Assembly: GCA_001513145.1 (NCBI GenBank) | Contig: LFSP01000023.1 | Location: 55,500 to 106,044 of the forward strand | DNA length: 50,545 nt | DNA from: Clostridia bacterium DTU025 | GTDB lineage: Bacteria > Bacillota > DTU025 | Direction of reading: 5' to 3' | Shown here: piece by piece, positions 18,774-50,545 of the stretch | Numbering within the stretch: position 1 is the first letter of the stretch | How the letters are laid out: each line of letters begins with the position of its first letter | Notes under the pieces: generated by a model | Databases searched by the model: none | Told to the model about the DNA's origin: nothing | The model's input: only the letters and a program-made list of their open reading frames with translations | Program-made: the position numbers and the translations under genes

Positions 18774-19125
18774 TGGTGGAGGCGCCGGGAGTCGAACCCG
18801 GGTCCGAAGAGGTCCCTTGGGCCGCGTCTACGAGCGTAGCGCGCGAACTGGACTTCGCTCCGCGCGACGCGCACGCGCGCGCTTCGGGCGGGCTATCTCG
18901 ATGGTCTTTTCGTCAGCCTCCGAGAATTGGCTGGCGAGCATCCTGACTTTCGTGACGCCCTTACCGGCCTCTCAGGCTAAGTCCGGATCGGACGGCCGCC
19001 TAATACTTAGGCTGCGTAAGCGTAGTTGTTGTTGGCACTTATTGTGCTTCCACCGTTTAACGAGCTGGTGGGATCTCGGCTCGCAACGTCCCTCGCGACG
19101 CTCCCCGTCGAAACCGTACGCCCCC
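18774..19125 (-). ncRNA. ssrA: tmRNA (ssrA)
   Basis: The molecule is about 352 bases on the minus strand. The 5' end GGGGGCG pairs with CGCCTCC just before the 3' ACCA, and the T-arm sequence GGTTCGACTCCC is present near the 3' end. The conserved GGTTTCGACGGGG follows the 5' acceptor strand. The resume codon lies in AAGTGCCAACAACAAC, and the tag reading frame encodes ANNNYAYAA followed by TAA (about 18994-19035). Most tags I know end in LAA or VAA, so the tyrosine before the last two alanines is unusual. tmRNA rescues stalled ribosomes with SmpB, whose gene lies just upstream. Confidence 0.95.
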
Positions 19126-32080: not shown

Positions 32081-32677
32081 ATGTTGGGAACTCTCTGGGT
32101 GGCTATGCTGGCGTCGGGAACCCTCGCAGCCGTCGTGTGCAAGGGGCCCGCGTCGGTGGCGCAGATCCTGACCAAGTCCGCGTCTGATGCCATCCACCTG
32201 TGCATCGGGCTTGCCGGCCTGATCGGCCTCTGGTCAGGCATATCTGCCCTGGCAGAGGAATCGGGGCTGATGGACGCGCTGGCCGCTGCAGTGAGGCCCG
32301 TGACCCGCCGCCTGTTCCCAGGCCTTCCTTCCGACAGCCCAGCCCACGGCGCCATGGCCGCTTCCTTCGCAGCCAATCTGCTCGGGCTTGGGGGAGCCGC
32401 CACCCCTCTTGGCCTGCGGGCCATGGAGGAGCTGGCGAAGGCCTCAAGGCGTCCTGGCGAGGCCTCGGACGAGATGTGCACCTTCGTTCTCCTGATCGCC
32501 TCCGGCCTCACGCTGGTCCCAACGTCGATCCTGGCGGTGCGGGCCCACGCGGGATCCGCGGCGCCTGCGTCCGTCACCGGGCCGATGCTGATAGCCAGCA
32601 CCTGCTCAACCCTGACGGCGCTCCTGGCGGACGGACTCATCAGGGGAGCTAGGCGGCGCCTGCGGCGCGGAAGGTAG
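32081..32677 (+). CDS. spmA: spore maturation protein A
   Basis: The protein has 198 residues with several membrane segments and a nucleoside-transporter-gate-type domain (SASDAIHLCIGLAGLIGLWSG, AANLLGLGGAATPLGLRAMEEL, FVLLIASGLTLVPTSILAVRA). SpmA and SpmB act together in spore core dehydration in Bacillus. GGGGAGGAG lies upstream of the ATG. It begins 105 bases from the divergent whiA start and is followed by spmB after 10 bases. It supports spore formation by the host. Confidence 0.9.
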   Translation: MLGTLWVAMLASGTLAAVVCKGPASVAQILTKSASDAIHLCIGLAGLIGLWSGISALAEESGLMDALAAAVRPVTRRLFPGLPSDSPAHGAMAASFAANLLGLGGAATPLGLRAMEELAKASRRPGEASDEMCTFVLLIASGLTLVPTSILAVRAHAGSAAPASVTGPMLIASTCSTLTALLADGLIRGARRRLRRGR

Positions 32678-32687
32678 GCGCCAGCCG

Positions 32688-33227
32688 ATGAAGGCGTTCG
32701 TAACCTTCGCGCAGCTCGTCACGCCTCTCTTCGTAGTGGGAATCCCCCTTTACGCGTGGTTCCGCCGCGTAGACGTTTACTCCGTGTTCCTCAGGGGCGC
32801 AGGCGAAGGCTTCAGGTCGCTGGCGCGCATGGCTCCAGCTGTGCTCTGCATGTTCACCGCGGTTGGGCTCCTGTCGGAATCAGGAGCCATGGACCTCGCC
32901 GGGCCGGCCCTGGCTCCGCTGGCGCGGGCCCTGGACACGCCAGAGGACATCCTGGTGCTATCACTGATAAGGCCCCTGTCGGGCTCCGGCGCGCTTGGCC
33001 TGCTCGCGAGGATCTTGAGCTCCAAAGGACCGGACTCGTTCGAAGGGATTCTGGCGTCCACCGTTCAAGGATCCACCGACACCGCCATCTACGTGGTGGC
33101 GCTGTACTTCGGGTCAGTGGGAATAGCGCGTACGCGACACGTCCCCATCGTGGCGCTGCTGGCGGCGGCGGCCGGAACTGCGGCGGCAGTCGTGGCCTGC
33201 AGGCTCAGCGCGATCTCGGGTTTCTGA
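32688..33227 (+). CDS. spmB: spore maturation protein B
   Basis: The protein has 179 residues and is polytopic. The family core is present: RMAPAVLCMFTAVGLLSESGAMD, LIRPLSGSGALGLL and TVQGSTDTAIYVVALYFGSVGI. It pairs with SpmA. The last 23 bases overlap the end of the convergent yvcK gene. dacB, which often precedes spmA, is not seen here. Confidence 0.9.
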   Translation: MKAFVTFAQLVTPLFVVGIPLYAWFRRVDVYSVFLRGAGEGFRSLARMAPAVLCMFTAVGLLSESGAMDLAGPALAPLARALDTPEDILVLSLIRPLSGSGALGLLARILSSKGPDSFEGILASTVQGSTDTAIYVVALYFGSVGIARTRHVPIVALLAAAAGTAAAVVACRLSAISGF

Positions 33228-34194: not shown

Positions 34195-35718
34195 TCATAG
34201 ATAATTCGTCGGCGCCCATCGGAACACCTCGTCTTGTGCCGCTATATCTCGAAGGGCGCTGGCATCGTCGCAGGCAGAATCCAGGGCGGCACGGGCGAGC
34301 CGCATGAAGTTGTCGACGTGCGCCCGAAACCTGGCCCTGGCGTACTCAGACGCCTGGCCGACGCCGACGAGATACGGCCAGTCGCTGGCCTCAGCCAGCA
34401 TCAGCTCCCTGGATGCCGCGGCCGCAAGCTCCAGTTGACGAGGGCTGAGCCGAACGGTGGCCGCGTCAAGCTGGCGCTTGAGAGCGTGTGCATCCCTGAG
34501 CACCGTCCACATGGAGCGCGTTGAGTCGTTGGTCCAGTTGCTGTGCGGTGGCCCTTCTCCCCACGATCCGTCCGTCAGCTCGACGTCTCCGCCCCACGTA
34601 CCCTCGTCCGCTGCTCGGCTCACCGAAGCCAAGCTCATGCCAGCGCTTTCCGACACAATATGTATTACGTGGCTCAGCCAAGTAACCCCCTCATGCCACC
34701 AGTGCCCGAAGAGCTCCATGTCGAACGGGGCAACAACCAGCCCGCCGTCGACGCCGGCGACCCTTTCGGCCACGAACTGACAGAAGTGCTCGGCATGGCG
34801 ACGGGCCGCCGCGTCCGCCTCCTGAGGCCGGTACAGCTGCTTGTAGTCTAGCGCCGTAAGCTTCGACGTCACCCTCCAGTACGGTATCCCGGAAAGCTCG
34901 TGCCGCTTGTGGAACTCCCTGTATGCCCCGTCTCCCGGGTAGCCAGTGTCTGGCGACCACACCTGAGCCACGGCGACGTCGTCTCGCACCAGAACCCGCA
35001 TGTCGCTGCCGCCAAGGGTGTAGCGCGCCAGGCTAGCTGCGCCCGAACGGCCCGGCGTGGGCCTCACGGACGACGGGTCCACCAGTATGCAGTCTACACC
35101 GATCTCCTGGAGCGCGGCGTCGAGGGCTCCTGGGCTGTATCCCAGCTCAGGAAGCCACGCCGCCTTCGGCCGCACGCCCAGGTGGTGCTGTATGGCCAGC
35201 GCGCCGGTGCGCAGCTGCGCCCTGACGCGGTCGGCGTCGCCCAAGAGTGGCAGGTAGGCGTGGGTGGCCGCTGTGGTCATGATCTCTATCCTCCCGTCCT
35301 GTGCCAGCCGGCGGAAGGCTCCCACGAGATCGCGGTGCCAGCGTTCCAGGAACGAGCGCTTAACCGCCTCGCACTGCTCGAGATAGTCTCCGGCGATGGA
35401 GGCCATTATATCGTCGTGGACCTCCATGTGGCGCTCGATGTCGCGGCGCGCGGCTGCGATCCTGGCGTCGATGTACTCCAGGAACCTCTGCTTCATGTAG
35501 TCGTCCGCCAGCTGCTCGCAGAGGATCGGGGATACGGCCACCGACAGGCACGCGCCGGCCTCAGCGGGCAGGGCCTCTGCCATCAGGTCCAACATGGGGA
35601 TGTAGGTCTCAGCCATGGCCTCAAACACCCATTCCTCGCCGAATGGCCAGACCCCTTGCTTCCTGCAGTATGGGATGTGTGAGTGCAGAACGAACGCCAG
35701 AAGCGACCGGGAGCTCAA
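34195..35718 (-). CDS. GH57 family protein, 1,4-alpha-glucan branching enzyme-like (first copy)
   Basis: The protein has 507 residues from a TTG with GGAGGT seven bases upstream. The GH57 motifs are recognisable: LHSHIPYCRK (motif 1), ATHAYLPLL, AWLPELGYSPG with the nucleophile Glu191, and APFDMELFGHWWHEG with the acid/base Asp333. The spacing matches branching enzymes, which cut and rejoin alpha-1,4 glucan to make alpha-1,6 branches in the cytoplasm. A helical C-terminal region of DUF1957 type follows. No signal peptide. It is one of two GH57 copies, more divergent in motif 1 than the second. It is transcribed away from DUF4912 and the other copy. Confidence 0.85.
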   Translation of the reverse strand: MSSRSLLAFVLHSHIPYCRKQGVWPFGEEWVFEAMAETYIPMLDLMAEALPAEAGACLSVAVSPILCEQLADDYMKQRFLEYIDARIAAARRDIERHMEVHDDIMASIAGDYLEQCEAVKRSFLERWHRDLVGAFRRLAQDGRIEIMTTAATHAYLPLLGDADRVRAQLRTGALAIQHHLGVRPKAAWLPELGYSPGALDAALQEIGVDCILVDPSSVRPTPGRSGAASLARYTLGGSDMRVLVRDDVAVAQVWSPDTGYPGDGAYREFHKRHELSGIPYWRVTSKLTALDYKQLYRPQEADAAARRHAEHFCQFVAERVAGVDGGLVVAPFDMELFGHWWHEGVTWLSHVIHIVSESAGMSLASVSRAADEGTWGGDVELTDGSWGEGPPHSNWTNDSTRSMWTVLRDAHALKRQLDAATVRLSPRQLELAAAASRELMLAEASDWPYLVGVGQASEYARARFRAHVDNFMRLARAALDSACDDASALRDIAAQDEVFRWAPTNYL

Positions 35719-35853
35719 AGCGACAACCTCCGGAGTCTCGCATGATGCGCAATGGACGCGTTTGGCGTTTAGTGTTACCCCGTTCAGCCCCAGTATCCAG
35801 CGGCGGATAGCCCATCATTCCTGGGGGCAGTATACCGTGAAGGAGGAAGGCCA

Positions 35854-36384
35854 TTGGACACTGACAGCGCTCGCAGAATACCTCGACACCAGCACCAGCC
35901 CGGAGAGGGCCTCCCAGCCCCGGAGTCACCCATCAACCTCTCAGACCAGTTGCCGCGCTCCTACGGAGTGACGCGCTGCGTTCTCCAGGCTCGCGATCCA
36001 AGGTGGCTGCATGCCTGGTGGGAAGCGTCTGAGGCCGAGTGGAGCTTCGCGCTGGCGCGCGTGGGAGCGAACGCCGCTCAGGCCACCCCGGTGCTGCGCG
36101 TGTACAACCTGGGGACCGAAGGCCCGCCGGATTTGGCCTTGGCCTCGGCCTCGGCGATGGCACCTTGGTGGTATGTGCCCCTGGGCCAGTTCGCCGACGC
36201 CTGGCTCTTCGAGGTGCCGGTTCCCGGCTGCTACTACCGAGTCGAAGTGGGCCTTCTGGGCCCGGGAGGCGCGTTCGTCCCCGTGGCCGCCTCCAACGTT
36301 GCCCAGACGCCCCGGGCGAGCCCATGCGGCTTGGCAAGCCGGCGGCCATCAGCGTGGTCTGGCAGCATCAGCCGCCTGGCGTAG
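35854..36384 (+). CDS. DUF4912 domain protein
   Basis: The protein has 176 residues from a TTG seven bases after AGGAGG. The first ~40 residues are low complexity and Pro-rich. The DUF4912 core follows: LPRSYGVTRCVLQARDPRWLHAWWE, then a beta-rich part with LRVYNL and WWYVPLGQFADAWLFEVPVPGCYYRVEVGL. The domain is predicted to fold as a beta sandwich and is often found next to GH57 enzymes; a glucan-binding role is inference. It is separated from the GH57 gene downstream by 46 bases and shares its operon. Confidence 0.72.
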   Translation: MDTDSARRIPRHQHQPGEGLPAPESPINLSDQLPRSYGVTRCVLQARDPRWLHAWWEASEAEWSFALARVGANAAQATPVLRVYNLGTEGPPDLALASASAMAPWWYVPLGQFADAWLFEVPVPGCYYRVEVGLLGPGGAFVPVAASNVAQTPRASPCGLASRRPSAWSGSISRLA

Positions 36385-36430
36385 GCCGATCCAGCATCTA
36401 CGTATGGCATATCTGCGGGGGGTATCGGAA

Positions 36431-38074
36431 ATGGCTGAACCCAAGGGATACCTATGCATCGTGCTTCACGCCCATCTTCCGTACGTCAGGCATCCAGAAG
36501 GCAAGGGGGCCCTGGAGGAGATGTGGCTGTATGAGGCCATGACTGAGACCTACATACCGCTGTACATGATGCTGAAGCGCCTGGCCGACGCTGAAGTGCC
36601 CCATCGCATCACCGTGTCGCTCTCCCCGACGCTGGTGTCCATGTTCCGCGATCAGCTCCTCATGGACAGGTACCGCCAGCACCTTGACGGCCTCACCGAG
36701 CTTGCCGACAGGGAGGTGCAGCGTACCGCCTCGCTCGATGACATGAACGCCGTCGCCCACATGTACAGGGACATGTTCCGCGAGGTTCGAGATGTATTCA
36801 CGGGCGAGCTGGGCGGCGACATAACGAAAGGCTTCGCGTCTCTCGCCAGCCGAGGGACTGTGGAGTTGATCACGTGCGCGGCCACCCACGGCTACCTTCC
36901 GCTGATGCAGGTGTGCCCTGAGGCCGCCAGGGCCCAGGTGCTGGTGGCAGCCGCGGAGCACCGGCGCGTGTTCGGAAGCCCCCCGAAAGGCATGTGGCTT
37001 CCTGAATGCGGCTACTACCCGCACGTTGACGAGTTCCTCGCAGAAGCCGGAGCCCGCTACTTCTTCGTAGAGTCCCACGGCGTCCTCAACGCGTGCCCCG
37101 CCCCTATGCGCGGCCTGTACGCGCCGATTACGTGCCCCAGTGGGGTTGCGGCGTTCGCCAGGGACGTGGAGAGCTCGCAGCAGGTGTGGAGCGCCGACCA
37201 TGGCTACCCCGGCGATCCGGTCTACCGGGAGTTCTACTGGGACATCGGCTTCGAGCTGGACGAGGACTACCTCAGCCCCGTGCTGGGAAAGCTGCCCGCG
37301 CGCGCACACACAGGGTTCAAGTACCACAGGATAACCGGCAAGACTAATCACAAGGAGATCTACTGCCCGTCGGCGGCCAGAGATAGGGCCCTAGTGCACG
37401 CGGGCAACTTCGTGTTCAATCGGGGCAGGCAGATAGAGCACCTGGCAGGCTTCATGGACCGCCGCCCGATGGTGGTGGCGCCGTACGACGCCGAGCTCTT
37501 CGGCCACTGGTGGTTCGAGGGGATCGTCTTCCTGGAGCACGTCCTGAGGCTGGCGGCAGAGCCAGGCTCGGGTTTTGCCACTGTCACCGCGTCCGACTAC
37601 CTCGGCCAGTATCCGGTGAGCCAGGAGGCCGTGCCAAGCATGTCGTCGTGGGGCTATGGAGGCTACTCGGAGGTGTGGCTGTCCCAGGAGAACGACTGGA
37701 TTTACCGACACCTGCACTCCATGGCGTGGCGCATGAGCGAGCTGGCCAGGAGGTTCCCACCGCCCCAGCCTCCGCTGGTGGCGAGAGCCTTGGCGCAGGC
37801 CGCACGCGAGCTGATGCTGGCCCAGAGCTCCGACTGGGCGTTCATCATGAAGGCCGGCACGTGCGTGGACTACGCAGTGCAGCGCACCGCGTCTCACGTG
37901 CTGCGCTTCGACAGCCTATACCAGGCCCTCGTCCGCGGCGAGATCAGCGAGGGGCTGGTGAGGAAGCTGGAGGAAGCTGACAACCTCTTCCCCCAGCTGG
38001 ATTACACCGTCTACTCCGGCGTGCTGAACCCTGAGGCGCTCTCCGCCACGGCGGACCGTATCACGCCGGCATAG
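36431..38074 (+). CDS. GH57 family protein, 1,4-alpha-glucan branching enzyme-like (second copy)
   Basis: The protein has 547 residues. All GH57 motifs are standard: VLHAHLPYVRHPEG, ATHGYLPLM, MWLPECGYYP with the nucleophile Glu192 and VVAPYDAELFGHWWFEG with Asp353. The C-terminal helical part (SWGYGGYSEVWLSQENDWIYRH and beyond) matches the branching-enzyme family. It is cytoplasmic. ATG 36431 is chosen because the conserved part begins at once; ATG 36401 is an alternative. The gene follows DUF4912. Its last 64 bases overlap the convergent nucleotidyltransferase gene. Confidence 0.87.
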   Translation: MAEPKGYLCIVLHAHLPYVRHPEGKGALEEMWLYEAMTETYIPLYMMLKRLADAEVPHRITVSLSPTLVSMFRDQLLMDRYRQHLDGLTELADREVQRTASLDDMNAVAHMYRDMFREVRDVFTGELGGDITKGFASLASRGTVELITCAATHGYLPLMQVCPEAARAQVLVAAAEHRRVFGSPPKGMWLPECGYYPHVDEFLAEAGARYFFVESHGVLNACPAPMRGLYAPITCPSGVAAFARDVESSQQVWSADHGYPGDPVYREFYWDIGFELDEDYLSPVLGKLPARAHTGFKYHRITGKTNHKEIYCPSAARDRALVHAGNFVFNRGRQIEHLAGFMDRRPMVVAPYDAELFGHWWFEGIVFLEHVLRLAAEPGSGFATVTASDYLGQYPVSQEAVPSMSSWGYGGYSEVWLSQENDWIYRHLHSMAWRMSELARRFPPPQPPLVARALAQAARELMLAQSSDWAFIMKAGTCVDYAVQRTASHVLRFDSLYQALVRGEISEGLVRKLEEADNLFPQLDYTVYSGVLNPEALSATADRITPA

Positions 38075-40485
38075 AACAGGGCTATCTCCTCGGCCGCCTC
38101 CTGGCTGAAGGCCTCTGTATACACCTGGAAGACTGGGCGGTCGCTATCGGGCAGGATCAGCGCCTGCCCCTCGTCAGACTCCACCCTTATCCCGTCGATG
38201 AGCTGAACGTTGGAGCCTCTGGTGCGCTCGATGAGAGAGCGCATGACCCTGCCCTTGGCGGTCCAGGGGCACTCCACGGTGTGCGCGGCGGTGTGCGCCT
38301 GCGGCATCAGGCTGGCGGCCTCACTGAGCCGCATCCCCGTGGCGGCGAGGTAATCGGCCACCAGGGCCAGCGCGAAAAGGCCGTCCACCACCGGGTGCAG
38401 GTGATGCGTCCTCCTGCCCCCCGCCCCTACGTGGCACTCGATGGTGCGACGCAGCACCGACCCTGCGCCGGTGGGCGCCCGCAGCACCGATCCTCCCAGC
38501 GACTTAGCAAGCCTCTCCACCGATGCCGGCGCCGTTACCGGCACCACGAAGGGTTCACTGGGACGCAGTCTCACGGCGGCGGCACACGTCAACGCCAGGA
38601 GCGCCGGCTCCGACACTGACCCGCCTTGCTCGTCAATGAGGGCGAGACGCTCAGCGTTGCGGTCTACAATGAACCCGAAATCGGCTGCGGCATCGCGAAC
38701 CAGCTGCGCGTGGGCGGCGGCAGCCGCGGGACCCTCCCAGTCGATGGACGCCAGCAGGGTGATGCCCAGTTTTCGGCAGAGCTCCACCACGAGGTCGCCG
38801 ACATAGGCGGCGTCGTACGCGCCGGCCACCACCATCCCGGCGCGGCGTATGGCCTCAGTGTCGACTGCCGAGGCCACGGCGGCCAGATACGCCCGGGTGT
38901 GGTTGGGGCCGGGGACGATGGCGCCGATGCCGTCCGCTGGGGCTCGGCGGGAATCCTCGGTTGTGTACGCGTTCTCGATCTTGCGTTCGAGGTTCCTGTC
39001 GACGTGGATGCCCTCGGAATCAAGGAACTCCAAGATGAGAGATGCGGGGTCGGCCGGAGACACCCTGATATGGGCGCCCCCGGCGTAGCTGGAGGCCTGC
39101 AGGGTGTAGCGGGCGACGGCGGTGGTGTAGACGCCGTGGTCGACGACGTGGGTTCCGGCTGACACCACGCCTGACGCAAAGGCCGACGCGGCCATGGAGG
39201 ATGCTGGGTGCGCGTCGCGGGAGAGGGCGATCTTGGCGCCGGCGGGCATACACGAGGCGTAGGCCGCCCCGGCGCGGGTGAGCACCGCCGGGGTGAGGTC
39301 GACGTTGGCGACACCGCTGACGCCCAGGGAGCCGAAGAGCCTGCGCTGGGCGGCGCCGGACCATACTAGGCTGTGGTAGACGCGCGCTCCGCCGTCGATC
39401 ACCTTGTCGGGCCAGATCTTGACCCCGGCGGCGATCTTCGCGCCTTCGCCCACAGAAGCGCCGGACCCCACCACGGCGCCCTCCCCTATGCTGGCTCTAG
39501 CCTTGATGCTGGCGCGGGAGCCGATGACGCCGCCGGTTACGGTGGCGCCTGCGCCCACGAAGGCCCCGGGCCACAGCACCGAACGGGTGATGCGGCAGCC
39601 GGCCGAGGCCACGCACCCGGTGCCCAACACCGAACCGTCGCCCACCTCAGCACCCTTCTCGATCCAGCACCCGGAGGACACGATCACAGGAGGCTTGAGA
39701 ACGGCGCCGGCCTCTATCACCGCGCCGTCGCCGACCCACACCCCGCGTTCGATGAGCTCGGCACCGATGTGCACCCTGGCCCTGCCCTCCAGGATGTCGT
39801 AGTGGGTTGCGCGGTACTGCTCAAGGCAGCCCACGTCGCACCAGTAGCCGTCGGCGACGTAGCCGAACAGCGGCCACTCCCTCTTGAGCAGGCGCGGGAA
39901 CAGGTCACGGGAGAAGTCGAACTCGCCCTCGGGAGGGACCAGGTCAAGCACCTCAGGCTCCAGCACGTATATGCCGGTGTTCACCGTGTCGCTGAACACC
40001 TGCCCCCAGCTGGGCTTTTCCAGAAAGCGCTCGATCCTGCCGCTGGAATCGGTTATCACGACGCCGTACTCGAGGGGCGTGTCGACTTTCGTGAGAACCA
40101 GCGTGGCGGCGGCGCCGCGCGCCCTGTGGAAGTCAATGGCGGCGGAGATGCTTATGTCGGTGAGGGCGTCACCGCTGGCCACGACGAACGTGCCGTCAAG
40201 GAGGCCGCGTAGCGCCCTGACGCTGCCGGCGGTGCCCAGGGGGGTGGTCTCCACGGAGTACTGGATTGAGCAGCCGAAGCGGGAGCCGTCGCCGAAGTGC
40301 GTTCGCACCTCGTCAGGGAGGAAACACAGCGTGCAGGCGAGGTCAGTGATGCCGTTGGCCAGGAGAAGGTCAACGACGTGTTCCATCATGGGCCTGGCTG
40401 CCACCTGGGCCATGGGTTTCGGCAGGCTGCAGGTGAGAGGGCGAAGCCGTGTGCCTTTTCCGCCGGCCATTATCACCGCCTTCAT
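38011..40485 (-). CDS. nucleotidyltransferase fused to left-handed helix and degenerate phosphomannomutase domain
   Basis: The protein has 824 residues in three parts. Residues 1-235 are a sugar-1-phosphate nucleotidyltransferase: AGGKGTRLRPLT, GTAGSV and VASGDALTD. Residues 245-370 are hexapeptide repeats (left-handed helix). Residues 380-824 resemble phosphoglucomutase/phosphomannomutase (SRDAHPASSMAASAFASGVV). The phosphoserine motif TASHNP is replaced by RVSPADP (about 474-480), and the metal-binding D-G-D-.-D-R is altered to VDRNAER (about 607-613). The mutase part is therefore probably inactive. Such fusions are annotated as mannose-1-phosphate guanylyltransferases; the nucleotide and sugar here are not proven. 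It overlaps the GT4 stop region by four bases, so it is co-transcribed with it. Confidence 0.85.
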   Translation of the reverse strand: MKAVIMAGGKGTRLRPLTCSLPKPMAQVAARPMMEHVVDLLLANGITDLACTLCFLPDEVRTHFGDGSRFGCSIQYSVETTPLGTAGSVRALRGLLDGTFVVASGDALTDISISAAIDFHRARGAAATLVLTKVDTPLEYGVVITDSSGRIERFLEKPSWGQVFSDTVNTGIYVLEPEVLDLVPPEGEFDFSRDLFPRLLKREWPLFGYVADGYWCDVGCLEQYRATHYDILEGRARVHIGAELIERGVWVGDGAVIEAGAVLKPPVIVSSGCWIEKGAEVGDGSVLGTGCVASAGCRITRSVLWPGAFVGAGATVTGGVIGSRASIKARASIGEGAVVGSGASVGEGAKIAAGVKIWPDKVIDGGARVYHSLVWSGAAQRRLFGSLGVSGVANVDLTPAVLTRAGAAYASCMPAGAKIALSRDAHPASSMAASAFASGVVSAGTHVVDHGVYTTAVARYTLQASSYAGGAHIRVSPADPASLILEFLDSEGIHVDRNLERKIENAYTTEDSRRAPADGIGAIVPGPNHTRAYLAAVASAVDTEAIRRAGMVVAGAYDAAYVGDLVVELCRKLGITLLASIDWEGPAAAAAHAQLVRDAAADFGFIVDRNAERLALIDEQGGSVSEPALLALTCAAAVRLRPSEPFVVPVTAPASVERLAKSLGGSVLRAPTGAGSVLRRTIECHVGAGGRRTHHLHPVVDGLFALALVADYLAATGMRLSEAASLMPQAHTAAHTVECPWTAKGRVMRSLIERTRGSNVQLIDGIRVESDEGQALILPDSDRPVFQVYTEAFSQEAAEEIALFYAGVIRSAVAESASGFSTPE

Positions 40486-41753
40486 CCGCTCGCCACCTCC
40501 CGTGCGAGGCGGGCTCCAGTCCCATCCTGCTCACGGAGCGTCGCCCCGCCCGCCGCGCCGGACTGAGGATGCAGGCCGCCGTCGCCCTGCATCTCCATGT
40601 GAAACCGCAGCACTTGGGCGTACACAGCAGCGGTGCGGCGCGCGATGGCCCGCCAGTCGTATGTGGTGCGTATGTCGTACGCTGCGGCCTGTGTGAGGTT
40701 GCATCGCAACGCCTCGTCAGCGAGCACGCTCACCAGCGCCGCCCCCAGCTGCACCGGATCGCCGGCCGGCACCAGGAGACCGTTGCGTCCGTGCGTGATG
40801 ATCTCCTGCAATCCGCCTACGGCCGACGCCACCACAGGGGCCCCTGCGGCCATGGCCTCCAGCGCGGTGATGCCGAAGGGCTCGTAGAGACTGGGCACCA
40901 CCGCCGCCCTGGCCCGCCGGTACACGGCGTTCCGCTGCTGATCCGACACGAACCCCAGCATCCTCACGGCATGACCCAGGCGCCGCTGGTCCACGAGGCG
41001 TCTGAGCTCGTCCCCGTACGGTCCCGTCCCTATCACGAAGAGCTTCGCGTTGGGCCTCGCTGCCAGCACCTGCGGCATGGCCTCCAGCAGCACCTGCACG
41101 CCCTTCTCGTACACCAGCCGGCCCACGAAAGCTATCACTTCATCGCCGGGATCGATCCCCAGCGAGCTTCCTGGCACATCGCCCTCTGCGAACTGGCCGG
41201 GCACGACGCCGTTGGGGATGACTTCGATCTTGTCGCCGGGGATTCCGAACACGTTCATCAGTTCGGTCCGCATGTGACGGGAGCACACGATCACCCGCCA
41301 GGCCTCGTAGCCCAGGTACCATTCGATGTCGGAGATGCGTCGCTGCATGGGTGTGTGCAGGCCGGAGTTGCGCCCGAACTCCGTGGCGTGGATGGTGGCT
41401 ATCAGCGGGATCCTGTAGGCGTGCTTCATCCCCACTCCGGCGAACGCCGACGTCCAATCGTGGGCGTGCACGACGTCGAAGGGACCGGTCTCGTACGCCA
41501 GGCGGGCGCCTGCCGACAGCATGCCCACCGTGAGCTGCGAAGACCACTGCAGGAAGTCCTCGCAGCGGGGCCCCGGCACATCCACGCGGTGCACGTGCAC
41601 CCCCCGGTCCGACTCGTCCGATTCCCTGTCTCCAAGGGCTATGACGTGCACCTCGTGTTCGGCAGCCATGGCCCTTCCCAGCTCCTGCACATGCCGGGAT
41701 AGCCCGCCCACAACCCTAGGCGGGTACTCCCAGCTGAACATGAGCACTCTCAT
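40482..41753 (-). CDS. glycosyltransferase family 4 (glycogen synthase-like)
   Basis: The protein has 423 residues from an ATG with GGAGGT six bases upstream; the longer frame overlaps the preceding gene and lacks homology. The GT-B fold motifs are MFSWEYPPRVVGGLSRHVQEL at the N-terminus, VHAHDW, IPNGV, GRLVYEKGVQVLLEA, and EPFGITALEAMAAGAPVVAS with the EX7E pair near the C-terminus. The WEYPP.GGL opening is that of glycogen/starch synthase-like GT4 enzymes, which transfer glucose from a nucleotide sugar to an alpha-glucan. It follows the GH57-like membrane gene and precedes the nucleotidyltransferase, which may supply the donor. Confidence 0.85.
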   Translation of the reverse strand: MRVLMFSWEYPPRVVGGLSRHVQELGRAMAAEHEVHVIALGDRESDESDRGVHVHRVDVPGPRCEDFLQWSSQLTVGMLSAGARLAYETGPFDVVHAHDWTSAFAGVGMKHAYRIPLIATIHATEFGRNSGLHTPMQRRISDIEWYLGYEAWRVIVCSRHMRTELMNVFGIPGDKIEVIPNGVVPGQFAEGDVPGSSLGIDPGDEVIAFVGRLVYEKGVQVLLEAMPQVLAARPNAKLFVIGTGPYGDELRRLVDQRRLGHAVRMLGFVSDQQRNAVYRRARAAVVPSLYEPFGITALEAMAAGAPVVASAVGGLQEIITHGRNGLLVPAGDPVQLGAALVSVLADEALRCNLTQAAAYDIRTTYDWRAIARRTAAVYAQVLRFHMEMQGDGGLHPQSGAAGGATLREQDGTGARLAREVASG

Positions 41754-41830
41754 TGCCCCACCTCCAGCGCAAGACAACGCTGCGACCTGGTGACCAGGCC
41801 GCAGTGTTATGGTTGCGCCGAAGCGGACAT

Positions 41831-44263
41831 TTATGCGCGCCTGCGCCGCACGGCCGCGATGGCACCCAGCACGACGGCCGCCGCCAGCGCAGCTCCGAGG
41901 CCCAGCCACAGCGACTCTGGAGCCCTGACCCTGAGCCGCCCCTGGTGAATGGTGACGCGGGCGTCTTCCACTTTGGGGAAGAACGAGTAGGAGCCGGCGC
42001 CTTCGAGCCGGGCGCCTGCGTCCTCGATGATGGGTCCAGGCCCCCACGCATACTGCGATACCATAGTGAATCTCCCCTCGGGCATGGGAGCGCGCAGCTC
42101 GCCTGCTTTGTCGCCGGCGGCCATGTCGGCGCTGACGGTGATGCCCAGGTTGGAGTAACGCAGGGCGCACGCCACGGTGTACGAGGGCACCACTGCCACA
42201 ATCGACTCCCCGTCACGTCGCAGCTCATGGATGGGGTGAGCGGTGATGCGCTCCACGCCGCTTTCGAGTTCCATGGAGACCGTGGCCGACGCACCTGGCG
42301 CCAGCGACAGCGCGTAATCGGTAGCCACGAGCCTGCCGAACGGCACCGAGGTGCACGAGACCTCCGCCGCCAGACCGTCGTACCTGACCACGGCGTACGC
42401 CCCTGTCGCCATGCTCATGAGCCCCAACGGCGTGCCGCCGTGGGTGTACGCGCTGAGCACGCCCTTGCCCCCTGGGTCGCGGTAGGCCAGGAGGTCGGTG
42501 CCGGCGACGACGTCGAGGGCCCGCGACAGTCTCACGAAGCTGCTCAGGGTCAGGTCGACGGAGCCGGTGGCGCGGATGTCGAAGGTTGCCTTGAGTGCTG
42601 AGCCCTCAAGGCGAAAGGCTTTGGTCACGAAGGCCGGGCCGGAGCTGCTGCGGAACGTGAGGGACTTCGAGTCCTGCCCGATCTCGAAGGTGAACCCGTC
42701 AGAACGTAGCGTTCCTGAGGCCACCAGGGCGCCTCCGACGGTTTCGCGCGGCGTGAGCCCGGAGCCTGCCATGAGGAGACCGTTCGCCAGGTCGTACCAG
42801 GCAATGATGTCGCCGGAATCCGGCGAGAACACGAACATGTTCCCGGCGTTCACCAGCACAAGCTCCTCGACACCGTCGGCATCCAGGTCCTCCGCGTACG
42901 CAGAGACGGTCGGGTTCATCGCCTGCCAGGCGGCATGAGCGGGCAGGAGCGCTGCCACCCCGCTCCGGGCGCGTTCCGGATCCATCCGCCCCACGAGGCC
43001 CATGTTCCTCAGGTGCCAGCAGTGCACCAGCTCGGCCCAGCTCAAGAGGGCCCCCGCCGCACTGGCCGCGCCGGCCGCGCCGGTCTCGTCGGCCATCGCG
43101 GCACGAACCGTCTGTATCTTGCTGCGCACCTGAGCCTGGACGCTCCTGGCCTTCGCCAGCACCGGATCGTCCGCATTGAACTGGGCCCACGAAGAGTAGC
43201 GCTGGGCTGACAGGGCTCGCGAGATGGCCCGGGGCTCGCCGGCAGGCACCTGCGCCACCGACGGAATGCCCTCGGCAGCGCTCAGGTGCGCCTCGACGCT
43301 GACGATGGATGCCGAACCAACGTCGGAGACGGCCCTGATCAGGTCGGGCAGCCTCTCCCAGCCTGGCTCCTCGGCCGACAGGTCAACCTCGATGGCGCAC
43401 ACAAGTATGTCGCGTGAATCACCCTTCGCGCGCGCGGCGGCTGCCCCTGCCACGTAATCTGCAGCCTGTTTCACCGAGCCAGAGGTCAGCGCCTTCCTGC
43501 ACGCGTCCACGAACGCGGTGTCGATGGGAACCAGCACTATATCGTCCCGAGACCAGCTTGTCCTCACCGGGCTTCTGCTGCTTATCCCCTGGGCGTTGGC
43601 GCTGGCGCGCAGCACCGTATCGTCGACCAGGGTGTAGCTGTACCCGGCCGCCGCCAGCGGACCGGTGATGTCCTGGCGCCATACCCCTCCGGTGTTCCAG
43701 TAGCCTGTGGGTGACGACCTCAGCAGGCGTTCGTTGAAGGCGCGCCCCAGCTCCAGACTGACCCTGGCGTCCCACGGGTCCAGGGCGGCCAGGGCAGCCG
43801 GGGCCAGCAGCGAGCCGACGCTCACGAACCTCGCGGCGGTGAGGCCGTCCCTGATGCGCTGCAGGGCCGGGGAGCCTGTCCACGCCAGGGCCGCGGCTAG
43901 GTCAGGCGATACACCCAGACCGAACTGCGCCCCCTCGCACCTCTCCATGGCCTCTATGAGCTCCATCAGCCGTTCGGATTGAGCCTGCAAGTCGCCTGAC
44001 TCGACGTCCCCGATGACATAGAACGAGAATGCCACTGGAAAAGCGGATGGTTCAGCAGGCTCGCTCACGCCCCCCGGTACCAGACCTTCCCGAATCCCCT
44101 TGCTGAAGATTCGCTCCAGGAAGTCCAGGAGTCCACCATCGGAGGACTGCGCCTGCGCGCGAGGGCCCGCAGCTACAACCAGAGTCACTAAGATGAATAC
44201 AGTAAAGCGGCGTAAGGCACAACGTAACATCCGCGATATGCTGCCCAAGCGAGTTCCGCCCAA
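41831..44263 (-). CDS. membrane-anchored GH57-like protein, probable pseudoenzyme
   Basis: The protein has 810 residues from a TTG after AGGGGA. A signal peptide covers residues 12-38 and a C-terminal membrane helix with an Arg-rich tail (LGLGAALAAAVVLGAIAAV then RRRRA) anchors it. The central part follows GH57 4-alpha-glucanotransferase/amylase architecture: YWNTGGVWRQDI with AGYSYTLVDD aligns with the usual WLTERVWEP...AG..YT.VDD. The DUF1926-like part has DLDADGVEELVLVN (459-472). At the nucleophile position the Glu appears to be Gly (WNTGG, 189-193). The acid/base Asp segment (usually DDGEKFG) reads CAIEVDLSAEEPG. Catalysis by the GH57 mechanism is therefore unlikely, so a glucan-binding or sensing role outside the cell is inferred. 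It is followed by the GT4 gene and preceded by the DOMON-like gene. Confidence 0.6.
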   Translation of the reverse strand: MGGTRLGSISRMLRCALRRFTVFILVTLVVAAGPRAQAQSSDGGLLDFLERIFSKGIREGLVPGGVSEPAEPSAFPVAFSFYVIGDVESGDLQAQSERLMELIEAMERCEGAQFGLGVSPDLAAALAWTGSPALQRIRDGLTAARFVSVGSLLAPAALAALDPWDARVSLELGRAFNERLLRSSPTGYWNTGGVWRQDITGPLAAAGYSYTLVDDTVLRASANAQGISSRSPVRTSWSRDDIVLVPIDTAFVDACRKALTSGSVKQAADYVAGAAAARAKGDSRDILVCAIEVDLSAEEPGWERLPDLIRAVSDVGSASIVSVEAHLSAAEGIPSVAQVPAGEPRAISRALSAQRYSSWAQFNADDPVLAKARSVQAQVRSKIQTVRAAMADETGAAGAASAAGALLSWAELVHCWHLRNMGLVGRMDPERARSGVAALLPAHAAWQAMNPTVSAYAEDLDADGVEELVLVNAGNMFVFSPDSGDIIAWYDLANGLLMAGSGLTPRETVGGALVASGTLRSDGFTFEIGQDSKSLTFRSSSGPAFVTKAFRLEGSALKATFDIRATGSVDLTLSSFVRLSRALDVVAGTDLLAYRDPGGKGVLSAYTHGGTPLGLMSMATGAYAVVRYDGLAAEVSCTSVPFGRLVATDYALSLAPGASATVSMELESGVERITAHPIHELRRDGESIVAVVPSYTVACALRYSNLGITVSADMAAGDKAGELRAPMPEGRFTMVSQYAWGPGPIIEDAGARLEGAGSYSFFPKVEDARVTIHQGRLRVRAPESLWLGLGAALAAAVVLGAIAAVRRRRA

Positions 44264-44265
44264 GC

Positions 44266-45153
44266 TTAGCTCCCCTTTCGTCGTAACGCGCGGCGCCTTG
44301 CCAGCAACGCACCGATGCCCAGCGCCGCCACGCCTGCAGCGGCCCAGCCAGCGGCCGGCGCCCAGTTGACCCCGGCCTCATGCACGTTGGCTGGCACCAG
44401 CACCGCCAGGCGTCGGTCGGCGTCGCTCCACGACCTCAGCTGGCTGTACTGGGATTTGGAGGCTGAATCCGGAGCCAGAATGTCGATGGCGTACGGGCAC
44501 AGCCCGGAGTCGCTTCCTCCCCCGAACACCCACTGGCCGCCTTCCTCCGTGACCGGTCTGTGGTCGTCGGGGCCGTAACCGTCCTGAGAGGAGACCACCA
44601 CATAGTATTTCCAGCTTTCAGACGGCTCCCCGAGGAGTTCCAAAGGCACCGACGCCCTGATGGTGGACGTGTTGGGCAGAACCCCTGCCCAGATCGGGTG
44701 ATCCTGGCCGCCCACATTGACGCGGCTTCCGCCCCATGCCAGTATCTTGATGTACACGTCCGGAGCCCAGCGCGGATCGAACCTCACGTTCAACCCCGAA
44801 CCGAAGGAGTCGACGCTGCCCTCGCCCGGCGTCGTGTCGATGAACACTTCCACCAGCTGGTGGCTGAAACCCTCAGGCGCGTTCCACGTGTTAATTAGCC
44901 GGGCCACCGTGACATCGAAGTTCGTCGCCCTGTCGTCAACGGTCACTCGAAACCTCGTGAGGTCGAAATGCCCGCTGTACGGGGCGAAGGACGGGTTGGT
45001 GGGATACGTATAGCTGCCAGGCCCGTGGTCATCTCCGGCGGGATCATCGCACTCCCACACCACCCGTTCCCCAGCTACCTCCGCACGCGCCATCGGCACC
45101 GACGCCATCGTCGCCACCAGCACCAAAGCCCAGGCCACCAACGCCCTTCTCAC
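44266..45153 (-). CDS. membrane-anchored glucodextranase C-terminal (DOMON-like) domain protein
   Basis: The protein has 295 residues from a GTG with GGAGGT seven bases upstream; the longer frame overlaps the ROK gene. A signal peptide ends near VPMARAEVAG. The main domain is the DOMON-like glucodextranase C-terminal type: WECDDPAGDDHGPGSYTYPTN, DLTRFRVTVDD, VEVFIDTTPGEGSVD and ILAPDSASKSQYSQLRSW. In glucodextranase and pullulanase-type enzymes such domains bind carbohydrate. Here no catalytic domain is attached. A C-terminal helix with RRRALRRKG anchors it to the membrane. It lies two bases upstream of the GH57-like gene start and both are anchored the same way. Confidence 0.78.
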   Translation of the reverse strand: MRRALVAWALVLVATMASVPMARAEVAGERVVWECDDPAGDDHGPGSYTYPTNPSFAPYSGHFDLTRFRVTVDDRATNFDVTVARLINTWNAPEGFSHQLVEVFIDTTPGEGSVDSFGSGLNVRFDPRWAPDVYIKILAWGGSRVNVGGQDHPIWAGVLPNTSTIRASVPLELLGEPSESWKYYVVVSSQDGYGPDDHRPVTEEGGQWVFGGGSDSGLCPYAIDILAPDSASKSQYSQLRSWSDADRRLAVLVPANVHEAGVNWAPAAGWAAAGVAALGIGALLARRRALRRKGS

Positions 45154-45182
45154 GCCAATACCTCCGCATCGACTGTAAAGAA

Positions 45183-46136
45183 TCACGAGTATTCCTCGAC
45201 AGCGCAGCACGCGGCGCCCAGGACCCCGGCGTCGGTGCCCAGGGAGGCTGGCACGATACGACATCTCGCCGCTGCCTCCGGTGGGTATGCTAGTACGGCC
45301 ACTTTCTGCTTCACAGTATCGAACAATACGTCGCCCACCTGCGACACTCCTCCGCCTATTACGACGGCGTCAAGGTCCAGAAGGTTCAGCGCGCTGGCCA
45401 CTGCAGTGCCAAGATATTCGAACGCCTCGCGCAATATGGCACTGGCCGTGGGATCTCCCTGCCTGGCGGCCTCTGCCACCACTCGGGCGGTGACCGGGCC
45501 AGAACCGGCGATGGCGGCGATGGTCCGCCCCGCAGGGCGGCTGGCCAGCTCCTGGCCGCGCCTGGCTATGGCCGTCCCTGACGCGACCGCCTCGAGGCAG
45601 CCCCTGCTCCCACAGCTGCATAGGGGCCCGTTGGGCACCATGGTGATGTGTCCTATCTCGCCTGCACCGCCCCGTGCGCCCCGATACAGCCGCCCATCCA
45701 GCACAAGGCCCCCTCCCACTCCGGTGCTGACGGTGATGTACAGCATGGCCCTGGAGTTCACGCCCGCCCCGAGCCGGCTCTCTGCCAGCGCGGCGGCGTT
45801 GGCGTCGTTCTCGATGCAGGTAGGCCTGCCCAGCTCGCGCGCGACGATTGCCGCCAGCCCAACGCTCCTCCATCCCAGGTTCGGCGCGTCCAGCACCGTG
45901 CCGGCGTCCCGATCCACCGGCCCCGGGGCCCCCACACATATCCCGGCCACGTCCTGGAGCCGGATCCCGGCATCATCCACCAGCGCCTTCACTGATCCAG
46001 TGATCCGTGAGATGACGGCCTTGACGCCTTCCTCCGGCACAGTCGCTACCTGGATCCGTGATAGAACGTTCCGACCTCGGTCAACGAGGGCCGCAGCTAT
46101 CTTGGTGCCTCCCAAGTCTACACCTGCAAAGTACAT
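45183..46136 (-). CDS. ROK family sugar kinase, glucokinase-like
   Basis: The protein has 317 residues from the ATG with GGAGGC eight bases upstream. ROK marks are present: DLGGTKIAAALVD (phosphate-binding), NLGW, ENDANAAALAE (catalytic Asp), TVSTGVGGGLVLDG and the zinc motif GHITMVPNGPLCSCGSRGC followed by LEAVASGTAIARR. Members phosphorylate glucose or N-acetylsugars. Glucose is likely given the glucan region, but this is inferred. An ATGTA...TACAT dyad lies just upstream. No DNA-binding domain is fused, so it is a kinase rather than a ROK repressor. Confidence 0.88.
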   Translation of the reverse strand: MYFAGVDLGGTKIAAALVDRGRNVLSRIQVATVPEEGVKAVISRITGSVKALVDDAGIRLQDVAGICVGAPGPVDRDAGTVLDAPNLGWRSVGLAAIVARELGRPTCIENDANAAALAESRLGAGVNSRAMLYITVSTGVGGGLVLDGRLYRGARGGAGEIGHITMVPNGPLCSCGSRGCLEAVASGTAIARRGQELASRPAGRTIAAIAGSGPVTARVVAEAARQGDPTASAILREAFEYLGTAVASALNLLDLDAVVIGGGVSQVGDVLFDTVKQKVAVLAYPPEAAARCRIVPASLGTDAGVLGAACCAVEEYS

Positions 46137-46244: not shown

Positions 46245-47345
46245 CTACCTTATGGCCAACTCCGTCTTGGGGTCGAACAGGTGGCACTCGTCCATGTTCA
46301 ACACCACCTTGTGGCGTTGGCCGTCCCTTGCCTTGGTGCGCGGGTTCACCCTGGCCACGAAGGAATGAGGGCCGCAGGTGAGGTTAAGGTACACCTCGGC
46401 TCCCATGGGCTCCATCACGTCCACGGTGCACTCGATGACCCTGTCCGGAGCCGGCTCAGAGACGAAATCCGCGTCCTCGATGCTCTCGGGCCTGATGCCC
46501 AACACCACGCGCTCGTTGACGTAGTTGACTGCGCCGGGCGCGCGATGCAGCGGCACTCCGGTGGAGAACGACTCGCAATCGATGAAGAGATCGTCGCCTT
46601 CCTTCCTCAACACGCCTGGTATGAAGTTCATCGCAGGACTGCCGATGAACCCTGCGACGAACATGTTGTCGGGACGCTGATATATCTCCAGCGGCGCTCC
46701 TACCTGCTTGATGAAACCGTCCTTCATCACCACGATCCTGTCGCCCATGGTCATGGCTTCCGTCTGGTCGTGGGTGACGTAGATGATGGTGGTCTGCAGG
46801 CGGTTATGCAGTTTCGAAAGCTCCGCCCTCATCTGCACCCTGAGCTTCGCGTCGAGGTTTGACAGCGGCTCATCCATGAGGAAGACCTTGGGTTCTCGCA
46901 CGATGGCTCGCCCCACCGCCACCCTCTGCCTCTGGCCGCCAGAAAGCGCCTTGGGTTTGCGATCGAGCAAGTTCTCGATGCCCAGGATCCGCGCGGCTTC
47001 CTTCACCCTCCGGTCGATCTCCTCCTTGGGAAACCGACGGAGCTTCAGGCCGAACGCCATGTTGTTGTAGACGTCCATGTGGGGGTACAGTGCGTAGTTT
47101 TGGAAGACCATAGCGATGTCCCGGTCCTTGGGAGGGATGTCGTTCACCAGCGTGTCGCCGATATAGATGTTCCCTGACGTTACCTCTTCCAGACCGGCTA
47201 CCATTCGGAGGGTCGTGGACTTTCCGCAGCCTGACGGGCCAACCAGCACCAGGAATTCCTTGTCCCGGATCTCCAAGTTGGCGTCGTTGACTGCAACAAC
47301 GTTGCCAAACTTCTTGTAGACGTGTTCCAGTCGTACACCTGCCAT
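46245..47345 (-). CDS. ABC transporter ATP-binding protein, MsmX/UgpC type
   Basis: The protein has 366 residues. The ATPase domain has GPSGCGKSTT (Walker A), LSGGQRQRVAVGRAI (signature), VFLMDEPLSNLDA (Walker B) and YVTHDQTEA (H-loop). The C-terminal ~120 residues are the MalK/UgpC regulatory OB domain (GIRPESIE, YLNLTCGPHSFVARV). Such ATPases serve several carbohydrate importers in Bacillota. No permease or binding protein is adjacent, so it is probably a shared ATPase. AGGAGG lies close upstream of the ATG, and a strong terminator follows. Confidence 0.92.
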   Translation of the reverse strand: MAGVRLEHVYKKFGNVVAVNDANLEIRDKEFLVLVGPSGCGKSTTLRMVAGLEEVTSGNIYIGDTLVNDIPPKDRDIAMVFQNYALYPHMDVYNNMAFGLKLRRFPKEEIDRRVKEAARILGIENLLDRKPKALSGGQRQRVAVGRAIVREPKVFLMDEPLSNLDAKLRVQMRAELSKLHNRLQTTIIYVTHDQTEAMTMGDRIVVMKDGFIKQVGAPLEIYQRPDNMFVAGFIGSPAMNFIPGVLRKEGDDLFIDCESFSTGVPLHRAPGAVNYVNERVVLGIRPESIEDADFVSEPAPDRVIECTVDVMEPMGAEVYLNLTCGPHSFVARVNPRTKARDGQRHKVVLNMDECHLFDPKTELAIR

Positions 47346-47453
47346 GCATAGTCCTCCTAATCTATCAATTCGGTGGCATCTGTGCCCACCTGGTCCACTG
47401 GACTATTCCACACGGCGTTAGTGATTCCTTCAACGAAGTCCATCGCCGCTGCG

Positions 47454-47459
47454 TATAAT
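47454..47459 (+). promoter_or_regulatory. candidate -10 box for the L,D-transpeptidase gene
   Basis: TATAAT, 24 bases upstream of the gene start, in TGCGTATAATG. No good -35 is visible at 17 bases (TTCAAC lies at 19), so use of another sigma factor is possible. Confidence 0.45.
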
Positions 47460-47483
47460 GGGGCAGAAATCCTACAGGTGGTG

Positions 47484-48632
47484 ATGGAATTGGCCCACGA
47501 GAAGCCCCTTCTCCTGATGAGAGGGATGACGGTCATTCCCGTAGGCAACTTGCAGGAGCAGCTGCACTTCAGGGGGTTTCCCCTTGGCGAAGTCGACAAC
47601 GTGTTCGGCATCCGAACTGAGCTGGCCGTCAGGCAATTCCAGGCCAGCGCGGGGCTGCCGGAAACCGGCATCGTGGACGAGGCCACCTGGCGTCTGCTGT
47701 TCGGCGGTACCCCCCTCCCCGCTGGCGCCTGCGTGCAGGAAGAGTCTCTAGCCAATGCTGGCATGGCGAGCTCTGGAATCGGCGCCACCCAGGCCTCGGT
47801 GCAGATAGTGATAAACCTGGCCCAGCGGCGGCTCACCCTGATCAGAAACGGAGTGGAAGTGGCGAGTTACCCTGTGGCCATCGGCAAACCAACCACGCCC
47901 ACCCCGGTGGGTGAGTTCAGGATCCTTAACAAAGCCCTCAACCCGGGCGGCGTGTTCGGCACCAGGTGGATGGGCTTCACCACCAGGGGGCACGGGATCC
48001 ACGGCACCAACCAGCCGCAGTCCATCGGGCACGCAGTGTCCAACGGGTGCGTGCGCATGTACACGCCTGACGTGGAGGCCCTGTTCGACCAGGTATGGGT
48101 GGGGGTGCCGGTGTCAGTGCGCTCGGGAGTGCCAGGCCAGGCGGTAGCGCCGGGCACATACGTCGTCAGGTCAGGCGACACGCTGTGGACCATCGCCCAG
48201 CGTTTCGGCACCAGCGTGGCCGCGCTGCGCACCGTGAACAACCTCGCCTCCGACATGCTCGCCGTAGGCCAGGTGCTGGTGATACCGAGCGGACCGCAGA
48301 CTCCTCCCATAACGACCTCGGACTACGTTGTGCAGCCAGGCGACACCCTCTTCCTCATCGCCCGACGATTCGGCACCACAGTGCAGGCGCTGATGTCCGC
48401 GAACAACCTGACAACGACAAACCTGTACGTGGGGCAGCGGCTGCGCATCCCAGGCGGAACGCGAACAGCTTCGGCCGCGTCGTCCCCCAGTACGCGGGAA
48501 TACGTGGTGCAGACAGGCGACACCCTGCGGGCCATCGCCGGGGCCCACGGCACAACCGTCGAGGCGCTGGTGGCCGCCAACTCCCTGAAGAGCGACGACA
48601 TCTACCCAGGGCAGCTGCTTCGCCTGCCGTGA
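47484..48632 (+). CDS. L,D-transpeptidase with peptidoglycan-binding and three LysM domains
   Basis: The protein has 382 residues. The order is a PG_binding_1 domain (about 30-75: FGIRTELAVRQFQASAGLPETG), a YkuD catalytic domain (about 103-205), and three LysM repeats (each starting YVV..GDTL). The catalytic His173 and Cys189 lie in HGIHGTN and SNGCVRM. The enzyme forms 3-3 peptide cross-links or attaches proteins to peptidoglycan. No signal peptide is visible; the start (MELAHEKPLLLMRG) is not hydrophobic enough. Bacillus YkuD-type proteins also lack one and are spore-associated, so mother-cell use is possible. TTG 47490 is an alternative start. Confidence 0.88.
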   Translation: MELAHEKPLLLMRGMTVIPVGNLQEQLHFRGFPLGEVDNVFGIRTELAVRQFQASAGLPETGIVDEATWRLLFGGTPLPAGACVQEESLANAGMASSGIGATQASVQIVINLAQRRLTLIRNGVEVASYPVAIGKPTTPTPVGEFRILNKALNPGGVFGTRWMGFTTRGHGIHGTNQPQSIGHAVSNGCVRMYTPDVEALFDQVWVGVPVSVRSGVPGQAVAPGTYVVRSGDTLWTIAQRFGTSVAALRTVNNLASDMLAVGQVLVIPSGPQTPPITTSDYVVQPGDTLFLIARRFGTTVQALMSANNLTTTNLYVGQRLRIPGGTRTASAASSPSTREYVVQTGDTLRAIAGAHGTTVEALVAANSLKSDDIYPGQLLRLP

Positions 48633-50077: not shown

Positions 50078-50545
50078 GATTGTTCCCCCTTGATGACTGT
50101 GTGCATGCCGCATCACGTGCTGAGATCACTGCTGCGATTCCCTGAGCGTCGTTCGGGGAAGTCTCCTTGTTTCCTTCGCCGTCTTCACCCAGAGGTGCTA
50201 CGTCTGTTCTTGCCTCGGGCCGTTACTCAACATCCTTCGGGGGAGCACCTCCTTTCCGGACTCATGGCCGTACCCGAGCGGTCTGCGTGCGACAAGAGCA
50301 TGGTCGATGTTTCACCATCGCCTGTTCGGGGGAATGAATTCTACTTCCCATGCGGAGTTCCTGCCATTCAAATACCCACTGAGCTGGTGTAACTCTTGGC
50401 ATGTCTGGATATTGCGGCCGATCCTCCGATTTCTTGCCATCCGAGGCTCTGTTCAGGACATGAGCGTCAAACTCGAGCGTCGAGGTCTCTGAAAAACCCA
50501 GCTTGAGCCGGGCTTGAAGCTAGGAACATGGCGTGTTTTGTGGAA
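50078..50545 (-). other. 468-base region upstream of the barrel gene; leader or promoter region
   Basis: No convincing gene is seen on either strand; the short open frames here overlap obvious dyads. On the minus strand GAGGTGCT (at 50243-50250) pairs with AGCACCTC (at 50193-50200) around a 42-base loop, suggesting a structured leader about 115-175 bases before the GTG. A GGGAA...TTCCC dyad around GAATTC lies at 50330-50349, next to a GGCAGGA sequence. It may hold promoter and regulatory RNA. The window ends before any upstream gene can be defined. Confidence 0.35.

Follow-up and report, generated by a model that had tools for sequence, protein, structure and literature searches.

A probable GT4/GH57 alpha-glucan locus in an uncultured diderm relative of Clostridia that includes an anchored Glucodextran_C protein and a GH57-like pseudoenzyme

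Bacterial glycogen is usually treated as purely cytoplasmic. Here we compare the closest described alpha-glucan systems with a locus in a 50,545-nucleotide stretch (hereafter the window) of Clostridia bacterium DTU025 (assembly GCA_001513145.1, contig LFSP01000023.1, positions 55,500 to 106,044, forward strand), whose 2.0-Mb genome is assembled in 52 contigs. Like the classical glgBCDAP operon, the locus encodes cytoplasmic alpha-glucan synthesis and branching, but its glycosyltransferase belongs to family GT4 rather than GT5 and its branching enzymes to glycoside hydrolase family GH57 rather than GH13. The block contains no GlgC or GlgD and adds a pair of membrane-anchored proteins; the GT5 synthase is on another contig, and phosphorylase (PF00343) is absent from the genome. 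Clusters in which an unassigned GT4 lies beside GH57 enzymes are described in the archaea Picrophilus torridus and Methanoculleus bourgensis (GT4-GH57-GH133; PMC11046441), and the GH133 debranching enzyme also occurs in related Bacillota loci. The portion of that paper available to us does not mention for those clusters the features that set this locus apart, namely an outward-anchored pair of a PF09985 and a GH57-like protein, a nucleotidyltransferase-mutase fusion and DUF4912. Compared by family only, mycobacteria also have a GH57 branching-type enzyme (Rv3031) and a GlgM-type GT4 acting in alpha-glucan synthesis, but their nucleotidyltransferase differs and no anchored pair is known there.

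The two anchored proteins likewise have known relatives. GH57 proteins that resemble 4-alpha-glucanotransferases but lack one or both catalytic residues (4AGT-like proteins) are an established class (PMC6037648). Compared by definition, the GH57-like protein studied here also lacks these residues, and 4-alpha-glucanotransferases are its closest relatives in sequence and fold, but it is secreted, membrane-anchored and fixed beside PF09985 and GT4. Amylopullulanase-like proteins of Thermococcus and Bipolaricaulota use a GH57 fold together with a C-terminal PF09985 module outside the cell; there the two are fused and the GH57 domains complete, whereas here they are separate proteins and the GH57 member is a catalytically dead 4-alpha-glucanotransferase type. 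An earlier note, made from the window sequence alone, knew of no described system of this exact composition, which is too strong in view of the archaeal clusters and of the GH57-PF09985 fusions, which are ordinary amylopullulanase-like proteins. For the anchored pseudoenzyme and the link of PF09985 to glycogen synthesis we found no description in the openly searchable literature, subscription papers being outside its reach.

The locus is larger than first delineated. Open reading frames (ORFs) and profile searches place every gene of the earlier note where it had been reported and agree on the families, but the conserved block runs past the end given there (46136) to about 50116. On the minus strand it encodes, in order, a porin-like barrel, a MalK/UgpC-type ATPase, a ROK glucokinase, the PF09985 (Glucodextran_C) protein, the GH57-like protein, the GT4, a nucleotidyltransferase/pseudo-mutase fusion and a GH57 branching-type enzyme (GH57 a). 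DUF4912 and a second GH57 enzyme (GH57 b) form a divergent plus-strand pair between the fusion and GH57 a, a plus-strand LysM-YkuD gene separates the ATPase from the porin-like gene, and yvcK is also a member.

This arrangement is strictly kept among relatives. Matching all ORFs of the window against the same region from seven other genomes of its family and one from a second family of the order, we found gene set, order and orientation identical in all eight, as far as contigs reach; the contigs of G006 and G007 are short, and a run of N interrupts the GH57-like gene of G008. Within the same limits, the GT4, PF09985 and GH57-like genes are all kept in G000–G008. Because gene order is identical in all relatives carrying the genes, their co-location is not chance, and the neighbourhood comparison that the earlier note had proposed shows that, wherever the order carries them, the anchored pair and the cytoplasmic GT4 and GH57 genes are never separated. 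The block is absent from the order's third family (G009–G011), where a GT5 synthase and phosphorylase are present, and profile searches of the carriers' genomes gave no match at all to phosphorylase PF00343. In G009, glgC, glgD, glgA and glgP stand together; operon and block show a clean replacement pattern inside one order.

Beyond the order, the PF09985 protein remains tied to the same cytoplasmic genes. Of the 399 Bacillota genomes sampled, 96 have PF09985, and we used profiles built from the window genes to scan 40 stretches flanking standalone copies, drawn from 33 families outside the order. In 13 of these families, genes for GT4, the fusion, GH57 b or DUF4912 lay within ~10 kb; with chance linkage at ~1.2% per family (a ~30-kb target in 2.5 Mb) this gives P ~5e-17, and 3e-9 even at 5%, values that are indicative since related genomes are treated as independent. 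Subject to the same reading, DUF4912 is found in 76 of the 96 PF09985 genomes against 114 of the 303 others (P 6e-13; 1e-10 without the order). The linkage of this outward-anchored protein to a cytoplasmic GT4/nucleotidyltransferase/GH57/DUF4912 module is real. Linked examples include Fuchsiella alkaliacetigena and a metagenome-assembled genome of Halanaerobiales, and an uncultured Clostridia genome (FIZI01; G050) shares the gene order except that the GH57-like and LysM-YkuD genes are missing and phosphoglucose isomerase is added. In other families the PF09985 gene adjoins genes for GH133 debranching enzyme, GH15, GH13, glucokinase and glucose-6-phosphate isomerase. Two expectations failed outside the order: between PF09985 and GT4 the other families have GH133, an aminotransferase or nothing in place of the GH57-like protein, and mutual exclusion of PF09985 and canonical phosphorylase is unsupported phylum-wide (21/96 vs 96/303, P 0.07), holding only inside the order.

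The PF09985 protein (44266–45153, minus strand; GTG start with a Shine-Dalgarno-like GGAGG just upstream) is a clear member of its DOMON-like family, scoring 206 bits against a curated cut-off of 22 (E 6.8e-61) and aligning with the solved glucodextranase 1ug9. Its neighbour, the GH57-like protein (41831–44263, minus strand; ATG candidate at 44230), consists of a signal segment, a degenerate barrel, a helical bundle, a beta domain and a C-terminal membrane helix followed by RRRR. In both proteins a hydrophobic segment stands at the N terminus, and a hydrophobic helix followed by an Arg/Lys tail at the C terminus, a layout that holds in most of 25 PF09985 sequences checked. The signal segment, read with the positive-inside rule, leads us to infer that both face outward. 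As judged from Omp85, found in 12 of 12 genomes of the order, the host is a diderm. Because Omp85 is present throughout the order and the block's final gene resembles an outer-membrane barrel, the pair most likely sits in the inner membrane and faces the periplasm, so that the term "surface" used for both proteins in the earlier note needs correcting. Given Omp85 and the porin-like gene, we rejected true cell-surface display through the C-terminal helix. In relatives with a single membrane, it is the wall that PF09985 would face. The Omp85-encoding window genome also carries spmA/spmB-like spore maturation genes (32081–33227), which suggests a diderm spore former.

The GH57-like protein has the ancestry of an enzyme and not its active site. 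Its own GH57 match is weak but significant (E 1.8e-6), and the closest relative of its profile is the 4-alpha-glucanotransferase of T. litoralis (1k1w, E 1.9e-15). Foldseek with the AlphaFold model ranks the same enzyme first (3e-13), as supporting evidence only given a pLDDT of 55 and a TM-score of ~0.26. We aligned seven GH57-like sequences with Thermococcus and Bacillota homologues and numbered residues as in T. litoralis. All seven have G, S or Q in place of the nucleophile E123, six carry E and one A at the acid/base position D214, and none keeps His11 or His13 of the HxHQ motif, whereas 4-alpha-glucanotransferases of Thermococcus and Bacillota retain all four residues. We therefore rejected an active surface amylase or transferase: the protein is an anchored GH57 relative, as had been noted, but not an enzyme. 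Ratios of nonsynonymous to synonymous substitution (dN/dS) between two congeners are 0.17 for the GH57-like gene, 0.19 for GT4 and 0.22 for PF09985, and such purifying selection marks the GH57-like gene as a maintained pseudoenzyme and not a decaying gene. By homology it descends from a starch-processing enzyme, and it now probably does no more than bind glucan. Fusions of GH57 and PF09985 in one protein, seen in Thermococcus, Bipolaricaulota and sister genomes, support a functional pair in which both modules act together on alpha-glucan. Three homologues in family f42 (L193, L214 and L195) are unlinked to the locus; L193 and L214 keep Glu, Asp and His11, and L193 begins with a signal peptide. 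To judge by these residues, they are possible active counterparts of the pseudoenzyme.

Among the cytoplasmic genes, GH57 a (34195–35718, minus strand), kept in all carriers, and GH57 b (36431–38074, plus strand) combine PF03065 with the BE_C domain PF09210 and, as branching-enzyme types, carry the catalytic motifs WLPE and APxDxELFGHWW, as WLPELGY and APFDMELFGHWW in a and as WLPECGY and APYDAELFGHWW in b; both score below NCBIfam equivalog cut-offs, so that any exact specificity is putative. The GT4 (40482–41753, minus strand) resembles glgA_Coryne/GlgM, its nearest NCBIfam model, and MshA, below curated cut-offs. Its stop overlaps by 4 nt the start of the fusion gene (38011–40485, minus strand), which by profile matches joins a sugar nucleotidyltransferase (NTP_transferase), a left-handed beta-helix and a PGM/PMM-like phosphohexomutase domain. 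The nucleotidyltransferase domain looks intact. The mutase motifs (TASHNP, DxDGDR, GGExSGH, RPSGTEP), read by eye, are all four degenerate in 7/7 homologues with the Ser position kept, which argues against an active phosphohexomutase and bears out the earlier designation as a pseudo-mutase.

DUF4912 is present here in a short form (35854–36384, plus strand). Longer homologues end in a Glucodextran_B-like immunoglobulin (Ig) domain (E 4.5e-5, below cut-off), and a fold search with the AlphaFold model returned only generic matches to Ig and fibronectin type III (FnIII) folds, the core being an Ig/FnIII-like sandwich. The domain occurs in 190 of the 399 Bacillota genomes and accompanies the GH57 branching enzyme across the phylum: elsewhere the DUF4912 and GH57 b genes adjoin each other, some beside intact GH57 4-alpha-glucanotransferases or GH15. 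The openly searchable literature yielded no account of its function, naming the domain in an unrelated context.

Carriers also hold a second alpha-glucan locus on another contig, kept in relatives (in G000, C35:130000–149000), where a GT5 GlgA gene adjoins a galT-like gene and one for a GH57 enzyme of branching type. G000 further encodes a type I pullulanase and a cyclomaltodextrinase-like GH13. A GH57 match on its contig C44 was rejected as a glucan enzyme; it is a PdaB/YlxY-type deacetylase.

At higher coordinates than the pair lie the ROK glucokinase-type kinase (45183–46136), the MalK/UgpC-type sugar ATP-binding cassette (ABC) ATPase (46245–47345) and the porin-like gene (48737–50116), all on the minus strand, with the LysM-YkuD L,D-transpeptidase-type gene (47373–48632) on the plus strand. 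The kinase and ATPase assignments are profile matches, and the ATPase and LysM-YkuD genes are conserved neighbours. The porin-like barrel has no Pfam match of its own, though homologues match Porin_4 and SlpA_C weakly; in several families its position next to PF09985 and the MalK-type ATPase is conserved.

Combining these observations, we tentatively propose, at somewhat less than an even chance, that the locus is an alternative alpha-glucan storage module, independent of GlgC and GlgP, joined to an inner-membrane, periplasm-facing pair that captures glucan for uptake. Inside, the nucleotidyltransferase fusion would make a nucleoside diphosphate hexose, the GT4 would extend alpha-1,4 chains, and the two GH57 enzymes would branch or remodel them, while DUF4912 would have an accessory role and possibly bind glucan. 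On the outer side, the PF09985 protein and the pseudo-transferase, both tethered by a single C-terminal helix, would bind alpha-1,4-glucan or maltodextrin that probably enters the periplasm through the neighbouring porin-like protein. The pair would hold this glucan for sugar ABC transporters that draw their energy from the MalK-type ATPase, and the ROK glucokinase would convert the imported sugar to glucose-6-phosphate for renewed storage. The substrates, their binding, a complex between the two proteins and the direction of transport we infer.

Several observations weigh against this proposal. Among the carriers examined, the block proved to hold no permease or solute-binding protein; the ATPase stands alone, without the binding protein and two permeases of a bacterial maltodextrin ABC import locus. 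With a pLDDT of 55, the AlphaFold model of the GH57-like protein does not allow a binding cleft to be assessed. Because the nucleotidyltransferase is as close to mannose-1-phosphate guanylyltransferases as to glucose enzymes, the polymer need not be one of glucose, and with a second GT5 GlgA/GH57 locus present the block may make something else. PF09985, which Pfam describes as SLH-like, may bind the cell wall instead of glucan, and by their gene families the LysM-YkuD and porin-like genes point to envelope biology in general.

These last points lead to a rival that we consider unlikely, in which the pair binds peptidoglycan or a secondary wall polymer unrelated to alpha-glucan and the block is kept by general operon conservation. 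The presence of LysM-YkuD and porin-like genes as conserved members would fit, as would standalone PF09985 in genomes without DUF4912 (20/96). Across families, however, PF09985 travels with GT4, GH57, GH133, GH15 and ROK genes while LysM-YkuD does not recur, and the GH57 ancestry of its partner is specific to alpha-glucan. The earlier note had envisaged a glucan made inside and either displayed or retrieved outside, of which display is unsupported and retrieval is favoured. Capture for retrieval is more likely than display because the locus holds no glucan exporter and does hold a porin-like protein, an import-type ATPase and a glucokinase; together with the missing phosphorylase, these genes favour uptake and hydrolytic use over export. 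Absence of phosphorylase in carriers is consistent with hydrolysis to glucose followed by glucokinase.

Export is accordingly improbable in our estimation, whether the glucan were held by the pair as a capsule-like layer, comparable to the capsular alpha-glucan proposed for mycobacteria, or as a periplasmic glucan. Such a route would explain why outward-facing glucan-type modules are linked to synthesis genes and not to import permeases, and intracellular glycogen tied to extracellular glucan has a precedent in PMC11046441. Yet no known export system is represented in the block, be it by an exporter, a flippase or a polymerase, the branched glucan made by GlgA- and GH57-type enzymes is large and cytoplasmic in known bacteria, and glucokinase and the MalK-type ATPase point inward. 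Pseudoenzymes often act as regulators, and it is conceivable, if very improbable, that an otherwise ordinary storage-glycogen locus uses the pair as a sensor that binds a ligand outside and regulates synthesis by signalling to cytoplasmic enzymes through its tails. Both proteins do end in short basic tails, and the GH57-like sequence is under selection despite its lost catalytic residues, but the tails span only ~5–15 residues with neither a recognizable domain nor a known partner.

Two features of the window remain. An 11-bp hairpin with a weak T tail between the GH57-like and GT4 genes (41780–41804, minus strand), a consensus match only, is a possible attenuator on the transcribed strand; promoter and terminator counts, hairpins included, do not exceed those of shuffled sequence. 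A tmRNA gene (18774–19125, minus strand) encodes the tag ANNNYAYAA.

The capture proposal has a bolder form, to which we assign a low probability: the PF09985 protein and the pseudo-4-alpha-glucanotransferase could be a dedicated inner-membrane glucan receptor coupling a periplasmic alpha-glucan pool to GT4-based cytoplasmic storage. Such a trans-membrane glucan cycle would be undescribed in bacteria, its PF09985 half old in Bacillota and its pseudoenzyme recruited in this order. Since relatives in a related family are, by their residues, probably active, the catalytic loss is directly testable. The locus also supplies a second case for the question whether GT4 enzymes associated with glycogen act as its synthases, and the DUF4912 family gains a testable role. 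The phylum-wide link of GT4, GH57 and DUF4912 genes to a tethered, outward PF09985 protein suggests that many Bacillota treat storage glucan and glucan outside the cytoplasm as a single system.

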